Below, one piece after another: positions 7,707 to 30,359 of a DNA stretch of 32,738 nucleotides. The stretch comes from Betaproteobacteria bacterium (GTDB lineage: Bacteria > Pseudomonadota > Gammaproteobacteria > Burkholderiales > SG8-39). The notes beneath the pieces are model-generated. The model ran no database searches, was not told where the DNA came from, and saw only the letters and a list, made by a program, of their open reading frames with translations. Position numbers and translations under genes: made by a program. Location: the NCBI GenBank assembly GCA_005883675.1, contig VBCM01000193.1, positions 4,821 to 37,558 on the forward strand, in the 5' to 3' direction. The first letter of the stretch is position 1. Each line of letters starts with the position of its first letter.

Positions 7707-7712
7707 TATAAT
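7707..7712 (+). promoter_or_regulatory. Perfect -10 hexamer upstream of etfB, possible leaderless start
   Basis: TATAAT with 6 nt to ATG 7719; 4 nt after the preceding gene's stop. No clear -35. Confidence 0.5.
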
Positions 7713-7718
7713 TTGCCG

Positions 7719-8468
7719 ATGAAGGTCCTCGTCGCCGTAAAGCGCGTCGTCGATTTCAACGTCAAGGTCCGCGTCAAGGCCGACAACAGCGGCGTCGAGA
7801 CCGCGAACGTCAAGATGTCCATGAATCCCTTCGACGAGATCGCCGTCGAAGCGGCGGTGCGGCTGAAGGAAGCGGGCAGCGCCACCGAAATCATCGCCAT
7901 CTCCTGTGGCGTGGCGCAGTGCCAGGAGACGCTGCGCACCGCGCTTGCCATCGGCGCCGACCGCGCGATCCTGGTCGAGACCGCGGCCGAGCTTCAGCCC
8001 CTGGCGGTAGCGAAGCTGCTGAGAGCCATCTGCCAGAAGGAATCGCCGCAGCTCGTCATCATGGGCAAGCAGGCGATCGACGACGATTCGAACCAGACCG
8101 GCCAGATGCTCGCCGCGCTGCTTGGCTGGCCGCAGGCCACGTTCGCCTCCAAGATCGAGCTCGCCGAGGGCCGCGCCAAGGTGACGCGCGAGGTCGACGG
8201 CGGCCTCGAGACCGTGTCGATCAAGCTGCCCGCGGTGATCACCACCGACCTGCGCCTGAACGAGCCGCGCTACGTCACCCTGCCGAACATCATGAAGGCG
8301 AAGAAGAAGGCGCTCGAGACGCTGAAGCCGGAAGCGCTCGGCGTCGATGTGTCGCCGCGGCTGGCGACGCTCAAGGTGGTCGAGCCGCCGAAGCGCAAGG
8401 CGGGCGTCAAGGTGCCAGACGCCAAGGCGCTCCTCGAGAAGCTGCGCAACGAAGCGAAGGTGCTTTGA
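7719..8468 (+). CDS. etfB: Electron transfer flavoprotein beta subunit
   Basis: [27 protein letters not shown]...[17 protein letters not shown]...[30 protein letters not shown]. Start refined from the listed ORF (7656) to ATG 7719. Confidence 0.96.
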
Positions 8469-19777: not shown

Positions 19778-19800
19778 GCGGCGATTATAATCGGCGCCCC
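19778..19800. promoter_or_regulatory. Putative bidirectional palindromic -10 between the ETF-QO and thioesterase genes
   Basis: CGATTATAATCG (19782-19793) is a perfect palindrome, so TATAAT occurs on both strands; 9 nt to + ATG 19801, 6 nt to - ATG 19777. Confidence 0.6.
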
Positions 19801-23840: not shown

Positions 23841-25169
23841 CTAGGCGATGAGCTCGGCGACCGCGCGCGCGTAGTGTGCCGCCGTTCTTTCCTGCAATTC
23901 GTGCCGGCCCTCGCGCACCACCCAGCCGCCGGCGACCATTACATCGCGAACCAGGGTTTCGCTGCCCGAAAAGACAAGCGCGTTCGCGATCGCATCGCCC
24001 GTGCGCTGCGCGATGTCGGGGTGCTCGCCATCGAGCACCACGAGATCGGCGCGCTTGCCACTCGCGAGCGCGCCCATTTCGCGACCGAGCGCCTGCGCGC
24101 CGCCCGCCGCCGCTTCGAGCCAGAGCGTCGTGCCGACGGCGGCGGAGGTCGAGCTGATGTTGAGGTTGCGCCGTCGGCCGACGAGGCGCTGCACGTATTC
24201 GAGCAGCCGCAGCTCCGCCGCCGGATCGCGCGACACGTGGCTGTCGCCGCCGATGCCCCAGCGGCCGCTCGCGCCGCGATAGCCGAGGAGCGCAAAGATG
24301 CCGTCGCCGAGGTCGGCTTCCGTCGTCGGACAAAGCCCCGCCACCGCGCCGCTCGCGGCGAGCGCGGTCAGCTCGGCCGGCTGCATGTGTGTGGCATGCA
24401 CCAGGCACCAGCGGCCATCGATCGCGCAGTTCTCGAGCAGCCATTCCACCGGGCGCTTATGCAGCGCAGCCGTGCATTCCTCGACCTCGCGCGTCTGCTC
24501 CGCGGCATGGATGTGGATCGGCATGCGCTCGTCCACGCCGCCGACAAGCTCTCTCAGCGATTGCGGTTCGACCGCACGCAGCGAATGCGGCGCGATGCCC
24601 ACGTTGATGTCCGGCGTGCGCTCGCGTTGCAGCCGCTTCACTGTGTCGAGCACGGAGCGCACATCGCTCGCAAAGCGCCGCTGGCGCGGCTCGAGCGGCT
24701 TCGCGCCGAATCCCGCCCAGCGATAGAGCGACGGCAGCAGCGTGATGGCGATGCCGGTCTCGCGCGCCGCGGCGAGGTGCCGATCGAGCATCTCCGCCGG
24801 GTGGTGCACGTAGTGGAACTCGGCCACCGCGGTGTAGCCGTGCCGCAGCAGCTCTATATAAAGCTGCGCCGCGATCGCCTGCGCCTGCTCGGGCGTGAGC
24901 CGCTCCATGAACTGGTACATGAGCTCGCGCCAGGACCAGAAATCGTCGTGCGGCGCGGCGCGCACATCGGTAAGGCCCGCCATGGCGCGCTGAAAGGCAT
25001 GCGAATGCAGGTTCGCCATGCCGGGCAGCACCGGGCCGTGCAAGCGCTCCGCGCCCCCCGCGCTGGCGCCGACTTCCACGCCGGCGATCGCGCCATCGTC
25101 GACCGTGATGCACACGTCGCGCGCCCAGCCCGAGGGCAGGAGGGCGTCGCGCGCGTAGTACTTCTTCAC
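23841..25169 (-). CDS. hutF: Formimidoylglutamate deiminase
   Basis: Amidohydrolase: [100 protein letters not shown]. Adjacent hut genes. GTG start. Confidence 0.92.
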
Positions 25170-25186
25170 ATCGCTATCATAGCCAG
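25170..25186. promoter_or_regulatory. Putative bidirectional -10 between hutF and hutI
   Basis: GCTATCATAGC (25173-25183); + strand TATCAT 6 nt before ATG 25187, - strand TATGAT 6 nt before GTG 25169; intergenic only 17 bp. Confidence 0.55.
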
Positions 25187-26377
25187 ATGCATGACGCCGT
25201 CTGGCTGAACGCCCGGCTCGCCACCATGGCGGGTCCGCTGATTCGCGACGGCGCGCTCGCCGCCACGGATGGCCGCATCTCTTGGATCGGCGAGCGCCGC
25301 GAATGGAAGGAGGGCGCGCGCGCGGAGCACGACGCGCAGGGCGCGTGGATCCTTCCGGGCTTCATCGACTGTCACACGCATCTCGTCTATGCCGGCAGCC
25401 GCGCACACGAATTCGAGCTGCGGCTGCAGGGCGCGAGTTACGAGGAGATCGCCAAGGCGGGCGGCGGCATCCTTTCCACCGTGCGCGCGACGCGCGCCGC
25501 TTCGCAAGCCGAGCTCTTGTCGCTGGCGCAGCGGCGGCTTCGCTCCTGGCTCGCCGAAGGCGCCGCGGTGGTCGAGGTGAAATCCGGTTACGGCCTCGAT
25601 CGCGACACCGAGCTCAAGACGCTGCGCGTCGCGCGGCAGCTCACGGGCGTGACGGTAAAGACGACGTTCCTCGGCGCGCATGCGCTGCCCGAGGAATACA
25701 AGGGCCGCGCGGACGCGTATATCGATTTCGTGTGCGATGAGACGCTGCCTGCGGCGGCGGCAGAGAAGCTGGTGGATGCGGTCGATGCGTTCTGCGAGCG
25801 TATCGCCTTCAGCCCCCAGCAGACCGCGCGCATCTTCGAAGTGGCGAAGCGGCTCGGCCTGCCGGTGAAGCTGCACGCCGATCAGCTCTCCGACCTCGGC
25901 GGCGCGGCACTCGCTGCAAAGCACGGCGCTCTGTCCGCCGATCACCTCGAGTACACAGCCGAGTCCGGCGTCGAAGCGCTCGCGCGTTCAGGCAGCGTGG
26001 CCGTGCTTCTCCCCGGCGCGTTCTATTTCCTGCGCGAGACGCGCCTGCCGCCGATCGCAGCACTGCGGCGCCATGGTGTGCCGATCGCGCTCGCGACTGA
26101 CCACAATCCGGGCTCCTCGCCGCTGAGTTCCCCGCTCCTGGCGATGAACATGGCGTGCACGCTCTTTCGCCTCACGCCCGTGGAAGCGCTCGCCGGCTTC
26201 ACCGTGCACGCGGCGCGCGCGCTCGGCATGCAATCGAGCCACGGCACGCTCGAGCTCGGCAAGGCCGCGGACTTCGCGCTCTGGGAAATCGCCTCTCCCG
26301 CAGAGCTTGCCTACGCGATCGGCGCCAATCCCTGCGTCGGCCGCATCCGCGCCGGGAATTCCGATCCAGGGTCGTAA
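25187..26377 (+). CDS. hutI: Imidazolonepropionase
   Basis: [121 protein letters not shown]. Final residues NSDPGS are encoded by the inverted-repeat element. Confidence 0.96.
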
Positions 26378-28686: not shown

Positions 28687-30341
28687 TTTGCGAGCGGCAG
28701 GTCGAGGCCTTGCGCGCGCGCGCAGGCGAGCGCCGCCTCGTAGCCGGCATCGGCGTGGCGCATGACGCCGCTCGCCGGGTCGTTCCACAGCACGCGCTCG
28801 ATGCGCCGCGCCGCCGCGTCGGTGCCGTCGCACACGATCACCTGTCCCGCGTGCTGTGAATAGCCCATGCCGACGCCGCCGCCGTGATGGAACGACACCC
28901 ACGTCGCGCCGCTCGCGCAATTGAGGAGCGCGTTCAGCACCGCCCAGTCCGACACCGCGTCCGTGCCGTCGCGCATGGCTTCCGTCTCGCGGTTCGGGCT
29001 CGCCACCGAGCCGGCATCGAGATGGTCGCGGCCGATGACAATCGGCGCCTTCAATTCGCCCGAGCGCACCATCTCGTTGAATGCGAGGCCGGCACGATGG
29101 CGCTGGCCGAGGCCGAGCCAGCAGATGCGCGCCGGCAACCCTTGGAACCGGATGCGTTGGCCTGCGAGGTCGAGCCACCGGTGCAGGTTTTTATCCTCCG
29201 GGAAGAGTTCCCGGACTTTCGCATCTGTGCGCGCGATGTCCTGGGGCTCGCCGGAGAGCGCCACCCAGCGGAAAGGGCCTTTGCCGACACAGAAGAGCGG
29301 ACGCACATATGCGGGTACGAAGCCCGGATAGTCGAACGCGTTATTCACGCCGGCGTTCTTCGCTTCCTGCCGGATGTTGTTGCCGTAATCGACGCACGGG
29401 ACGCCCATCGCCTTGAAGCCGAGGATAGTGCGCACGTGCTTGGCGATCGACTCGCGCGCCGAGAGCGCCACCTCGTCCGGTTCGCGCTGCCGCAGGTCTT
29501 TCCACTTGCCGAGTGACCAGTGCTCGGGCAGATAGCCATGCGCCGGGTCGTGCGCCGAGGTCTGGTCGGTGACGAGCGACGGGCGAAACGCCGAGCTCTG
29601 CGCGCGCTTGAGGAATTGCGGCAGCAGCTCGGCGGCGTTGCCGACGAGGCCGATGGAAATCGGCCGTCCGGCCTGTTGCACCATGGCGGCGGCTTCATCG
29701 ACGCTTTTCGCCTGCGCGTCGAGGTAGCCGGTTTTCAGGCGCATCTCGATGCGCGCCGGGTCGCATTCGATGGCGATCAGCGACGCGCCATTCATCGTCG
29801 CCGCGAGCGGCTGCGCGCCGCCCATGCCGCCGAGCCCGGCGGTGAGGATCCATTTGCCCGACCAGTCGCCATTGCAATGCTGGCGGCCGGCTTCGGCGAA
29901 GGTCTCGTAAGTGCCTTGCACGATGCCCTGGCTGCCGATGTAGATCCAGGAGCCGGCCGTCATCTGCCCGTACATCATCAAGCCCTTGCGGTCGAGCTCG
30001 TGGAAGTGCTCCCACGTGGCCCACGCAGGCACGAGGTTCGAATTCGCGATGAGCACGCGCGGTGCATCGGGATGGGTACGGAAGATGCCGACGGGCTTCC
30101 CGGACTGCACGAGGAGCGTCTGATCCGATTCCAGGCGGCGCAGCGCCGCGACGATCGCGTCGTAGCACTCCCAGTTGCGCGCGGCCTTGCCGATGCCGCC
30201 GTAGACGACGAGCTCCTCCGGGCGCTCGGCGACCTCCGGATCGAGGTTGTTCATCAGCATGCGCAGCGGCGCCTCGGTGAGCCAGCTCTTGGCGCTGAGC
30301 TGGCTCCCGCGCGGCGCGCGCACGATGCGGGGCGTGTGCAT
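28683..30341 (-). CDS. hutU: Urocanate hydratase
   Basis: [144 protein letters not shown]. Confidence 0.98.
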
Positions 30342-30359
30342 GGCGCAATGCTAGCGCCA
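30341..30359 (-). promoter_or_regulatory. Putative hutU -10 (TAGCAT) inside an inverted repeat (candidate operator)
   Basis: TGGCGC-AATGCTA-GCGCCA (30341-30359); - strand TAGCAT 30353-30348 is 6 nt before ATG 30341. Confidence 0.4.

Follow-up and report, generated by a model that had tools for sequence, protein, structure and literature searches.

How two divergent genes of one pathway can be expressed across an intergenic region hardly larger than a promoter element is the question raised by the hutF/hutI junction, which lies in a 32.7-kb window, the whole stretch of DNA that was analysed, from a Betaproteobacteria bacterium. The gap reads ATCGCTATCATAGCCAG, and the junction in full is CAC-ATCGCTATCATAGCCAG-ATG, with hutF starting on a minus-strand GTG (25169-25167) and hutI on a plus-strand ATG (25187-25189). 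On the plus strand TATCAT is followed by AGCCAG and the hutI ATG, on the minus strand TATGAT is followed by AGCGAT and the hutF GTG, and the centre of the gap is a perfect 11-bp dyad, GCTAT-C-ATAGC (25173-25183). An earlier sequence-only reading had given these coordinates, the 17-bp gap and the two hexamers at 6 nt from their start codons, all of which were exact when the sequence was re-read, and had stated that no room is left for a Shine-Dalgarno (SD) sequence, in keeping with which no GGAG, GAGG, AGGA or AAGG occurs within 25 nt upstream of either gene. Its assignment of both genes to histidine degradation is borne out by family matches that exceed the NCBIfam cut-offs (Table 1). The hutF and hutI starts are the first ATG, GTG or TTG in their respective open frames, and the N-termini are as expected, the HutF_N domain beginning at residue 5 of hutF and the N-termini of relatives being conserved. 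Other genes of the pathway, hutG, hutH and hutU, adjoin on the minus strand and are convergent with hutI; hutU has TAGCAT-N6-ATG at 30339-30353 on the minus strand and also looks leaderless.

Table 1. Coordinates of the hutF/hutI junction, its proposed promoter elements and the flanking genes.
Feature	Position	Strand	Basis
Proposed bidirectional core promoter, the 17-bp hutF/hutI gap	25170..25186		Read directly; exactly 17 bp in nine loci, four genera
Symmetric heptamer TATCATA, shared -10 element	25175..25181		TATSATA in 17/17 compact homologous junctions; 18 TATNATA genome-wide
-10 hexamer TATCAT for hutI, 6 nt before ATG	25175..25180	+	
-10 hexamer TATGAT for hutF, 6 nt before GTG	25176..25181	-	
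Predicted hutI transcription start, A of ATG	25187	+	Inferred from TANNNT-N6 spacing and the 18-bp rule
Predicted hutF transcription start, G of GTG	25169	-	Inferred from TANNNT-N6 spacing and the 18-bp rule
hutI, imidazolonepropionase, 396 aa	25187..26377	+	TIGR01224, E 7.6e-140, 466 bits (cut-off 298)
hutF, formimidoylglutamate deiminase, 442 aa	23841..25169	-	TIGR02022, E 1.4e-168, 561 bits (cut-off 413); NF006684; HutF_N domain

The reading favoured here, with a probability of roughly three in four, is that the 17-bp gap constitutes one bidirectional sigma70-type core promoter yielding two leaderless mRNAs. RNA polymerase would bind the symmetric -10 element (TATCATA/TATGATA) in one orientation or the other, but not in both at once. 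Transcription would begin 7 nt downstream each way on the first base of hutI or hutF, the 6-nt gap from the -10 placing the starts on the A of ATG (hutI) and the G of GTG (hutF), 18 bp apart. A site occupied in one orientation only would mean that the two directions compete. Both mRNAs would be translated from a 5'-terminal AUG or GUG without SD pairing, as is expected because there is no SD and TANNNT lies about 12 bp before each start, and the basal output of two enzymes of the same pathway would be tied to one small element.

Both halves of this proposal have precedents. In E. coli and Salmonella, the mapped start sites of bidirectional promoters are most often 18 bp apart (Warman et al. 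2021, via PMC12825309 and PMC10268837), and the available text of these sources describes this spacing as preferred because the -7T and -11A of both directions then coincide, and a -18T as favouring bidirectional promoters. The hut junction resembles these promoters in its shared symmetric -10, in its predicted starts, which have the preferred spacing, in the reciprocal -7T/-11A (T25180 and A25176 on the plus strand and their complements on the minus strand, within TANNNTA) and in mRNA both ways, which for hut is predicted. It differs in that the predicted starts are both start codons, the promoter would be the entire gap, both mRNAs would be leaderless, and the -18T is present in one direction only: hutF has it, opposite the A of the hutI ATG, whereas hutI has a C, opposite the G of the hutF GTG. 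Relatives with an ATG-started hutF have -18T in both directions. Leaderless mRNAs are not mentioned in the available bidirectional-promoter texts (PMC12825309, PMC10268837).

Leaderless genes are marked by TANNNT some 12 bp ahead of the start codon (PMC3160421), and this signature is present on both sides of the gap, with the first T of TANNNT 12 bp upstream of each hut start and no SD. Unlike the genes of that survey, in which divergent or bidirectional layouts are unmentioned, one hut hexamer would serve two genes. The closest mapped likeness is the M. tuberculosis gene prpD (Rv1130) with its divergent regulator (Rv1129c), both of whose mRNAs were mapped as leaderless (PMC3898074), as is predicted for hutF/hutI; that pair, however, joins a catabolic gene to a regulator and was mapped experimentally, and a shared symmetric -10 is not described in the available text of the source, whereas hutF and hutI are two enzymes on one heptamer. 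Bidirectional promoters and leaderless genes are known kinds, and the fully compacted, conserved, doubly leaderless form appears to be new, although it is not claimed to be the first; a shared -10 that is conserved and doubly leaderless was described nowhere in the literature searched, the coverage of which was limited.

The comparison with hutF/hutI junctions of relatives, which the sequence-only reading had proposed as a check, was made by a homology-first survey with the hutI protein as query against relatives and 98 genomes of the family. TATSATA is kept in 17/17 of the compact divergent hutF/hutI junctions (17-23 bp) that this protein-based search recovered, which come from six genera; nine of them are exactly 17 bp long (genera g1, g2, g3 and g7), and the other eight measure 19-23 bp (g7, g15 and g21); the gaps of L244 and L246 were measured by eye, the blast alignment having stopped short of the start codon. 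The hutI-side spacing is 6 nt in 15/17 compact junctions and the hutF-side spacing ranges from 6 to about 11 nt, being exactly 6 at nine loci from four genera. The layout earlier called perfectly symmetric is so in the window, but its 6/6 spacing belongs to one set of genera only, and what is conserved is the shared -10, the perfect mirror layout being a state of some genera. When the nine 17-bp loci are compared, no change is seen at the six A/T positions or at the GC that follows them, the central base is either C or G, and the flanking bases differ; at fourfold-degenerate sites of the same genes 14/107 are invariant, none of which is A/T. These nine loci were extracted with the motif, and the search pattern CAY-N5-TATNATA-N5-RTG can return only loci that have the core; conservation was therefore counted on homology-found loci only, 17/17 being the unbiased count. 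A 20-bp junction with the same core is also present in a different family of the order (G057, locus L014). Within the family, exceptions are widened junctions of 130 bp without the core (G022) and of 96 bp with TATGATA kept beside hutF (G032), and a genome in which hutF and hutI are not adjacent (G029). As separate observations, hutI of genus g14 (L248, L250 and L257) has no detected divergent hutF, yet TATSATA lies about 23 bp upstream of its start, and the family member G070 (L243) shares an identical hutF/hutI junction with a public record, Betaproteobacteria bacterium isolate NC_groundwater_869 (L112), which would place the family of the window among Betaproteobacteria.

Genome statistics were obtained from a 675-kb sample and from pattern searches of the whole 4.0-Mb genome, which has a GC content of 67%. 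TATNATA occurs at one site in the window and at 18 sites in the genome, and 8/18 of the genomic sites lie between divergent starts, counted where an ORF of 80 aa or longer starts within 20 nt on each side; about 0.7 would be expected (random positions, 4%; P about 2e-7). The reversed motif ATANTAT, used as a control, has 8 genomic sites, one of which scored as two-sided (L238), and is not fully inert, this locus itself being a divergent pair with TANNNT-like boxes. At L238 (position 1501), ATAATAT is common to two divergent ABC ATPase-like genes, 6 nt from one start and 7 nt from the other, in what seems to be a further arrangement of overlapping promoters. In the 675-kb sample TANNNT-N6-ATG is found 51 times versus about 20 at other spacings, a significant excess, and TATNAT is rare (47 sites), about a third having an ATG 6-9 nt downstream. 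Around the junction itself, no TANNNT occurs on either strand of 24987-25386 (200 bp either side) besides the shared TATCATA/TATGATA pair. The symmetric hutF/hutI element is not a product of chance, because its core is conserved throughout the compact junctions, it is the sole TANNNT within 200 bp, and the layout is in excess genome-wide. The shared symmetric -10 and two leaderless transcripts implied by the earlier reading are probable on the combined evidence of conservation, the 18-bp spacing, the lack of an SD and the genome-wide enrichment.

The two-way layout is not confined to hut and is found again at further divergent pairs. Most two-sided TATNATA sites are flanked by real gene pairs as judged by Pfam, for example ABC ATPase/PagL, lyase (purB-like)/uracil-DNA glycosylase, YicC/protein kinase, TctC/amidohydrolase, two solute-binding proteins, and enoyl-CoA hydratase/sugar dehydrogenase. 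The exact 23-bp CAY-N5-TATNATA-N5-RTG is present in 20/98 family genomes versus 4 for the reversed pattern. In the same genus it separates a FAD oxidoreductase (dadA-like) from a hexapeptide protein (gamma-carbonic-anhydrase-like) at five loci (L041, L040, L044, L047 and L048), in two of which the oxidoreductase frame is interrupted, and at L046 (G004) the hexapeptide gene has a different divergent partner, an alpha/beta hydrolase, with the layout retained. It is found elsewhere between moaC and an M48 peptidase gene (G034), between hydantoinase and methyladenine glycosylase genes (G135) and, in another family, between a yceG-family gene and a long divergent ORF, while a number of matches in other genomes are not flanked by genes and look fortuitous. 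A tentative generalization, given somewhat less than even odds, is that CAY-N5-TATNATA-N5-RTG is a lineage-wide 23-bp cassette in which promoter, both transcription start sites and both start codons coincide; polymerase could serve only one of the two leaderless genes at a time from their common site, the A that opens one ATG would provide the -18T for the opposite direction, and the cassette would be kept or re-acquired on a change of partner.

The window also contains a second likely bidirectional promoter, ATTATAAT, in a gap of 23 bp (19778-19800). To its left lies an ETF-QO gene (ATG 19777, minus strand) with TATAAT-N6-ATG, and to its right a 4HBT thioesterase-like gene (ATG 19801, plus strand) with TATAAT 9 nt before the ATG. 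At 7707-7721, an ETF-domain gene (ATG 7719) has TATAAT exactly 6 nt upstream, just past the stop of the preceding gene.

Some features weigh against a shared leaderless promoter at hutF/hutI. It is without a -35 or a TGN extended -10, neither of which was found conserved across the nine 17-bp loci; the hutF start is GTG, whereas leaderless mRNAs of E. coli reportedly need ATG according to the available text of PMC3898074; hutI has a C in place of the -18T; and the hutF-side spacing drifts to 9-11 nt in some genera, suggesting that strict leaderlessness of hutF is not conserved everywhere. An unlikely alternative is that only hutI is truly leaderless, that hutF transcripts start from this -10 but often with a short leader of several nt, or come from elsewhere, and that the symmetry mostly reflects near-palindromic -10 sequences. 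The nearly constant spacing on the hutI side beside the variable one on the hutF side fits this alternative, as does the GTG start of hutF in several genomes, including that of the window, but the nine loci of four genera with exactly 6 nt on the hutF side and the lack of a second TANNNT for hutF within 200 bp argue against it.

It is highly improbable that the palindrome GCTATCATAGC serves not as a promoter but as the operator of a dedicated regulator, whether HutC-like or of another kind. The perfect dyad, the frequency of shared operators between divergent catabolic genes and the usual control of hut genes by HutC (PMC5343134) would all suit an operator. The best TIGR02018 match in the genome of the window (G000, 92% complete), however, scores 49.8 bits versus a cut-off of 220, and HutC exceeds the family cut-off in 1/12 genomes tested, being below it in G000 and ten of the eleven others. 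In the exception (G061), hutC lies about 0.8 kb beyond hutI and the 17-bp junction is still kept. Furthermore, the nine 17-bp loci vary at the outer bases of the dyad, the identical core is present at unrelated gene pairs, and the 17 bp contain no palindrome of the ATGTNTANACAT type known from Alphaproteobacteria; HutC control through this site was rejected on the general absence of HutC, the variable outer bases and the missing palindrome. Alphaproteobacteria have the same two genes in the same divergent orientation, but their junctions measure about 50-200 bp and often contain HutC-like palindromes resembling ATGTCTAGACAT or ATGTATATACAT, whereas the gap here has no room for a separate operator; in the family of the window, most junctions are collapsed. 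Promoters inside the opposite coding regions, giving overlapping leadered transcripts with the symmetric element incidental, are equally improbable and were rejected, as there is no TANNNT on either strand within 200 bp except the shared one, a sigma70 consensus scan of the hutF/hutI region gave no match, neither gene has an SD, and the A/T core is conserved despite the high GC content of the genome.

Under the favoured reading of a single bidirectional, doubly leaderless promoter, hutF/hutI would fuse a bidirectional promoter and leaderless mRNAs in a nearly minimal divergent unit conserved in several genera. For annotation, the junction is a caution that very short divergent gaps without an SD can be correct. 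It offers natural, phylogenetically replicated material for asking whether polymerase competition at a shared -10 couples two enzymes of the same pathway, and it bears on whether GTG-started leaderless mRNAs work in Betaproteobacteria and on how a hut junction with an operator came to be replaced by one without.
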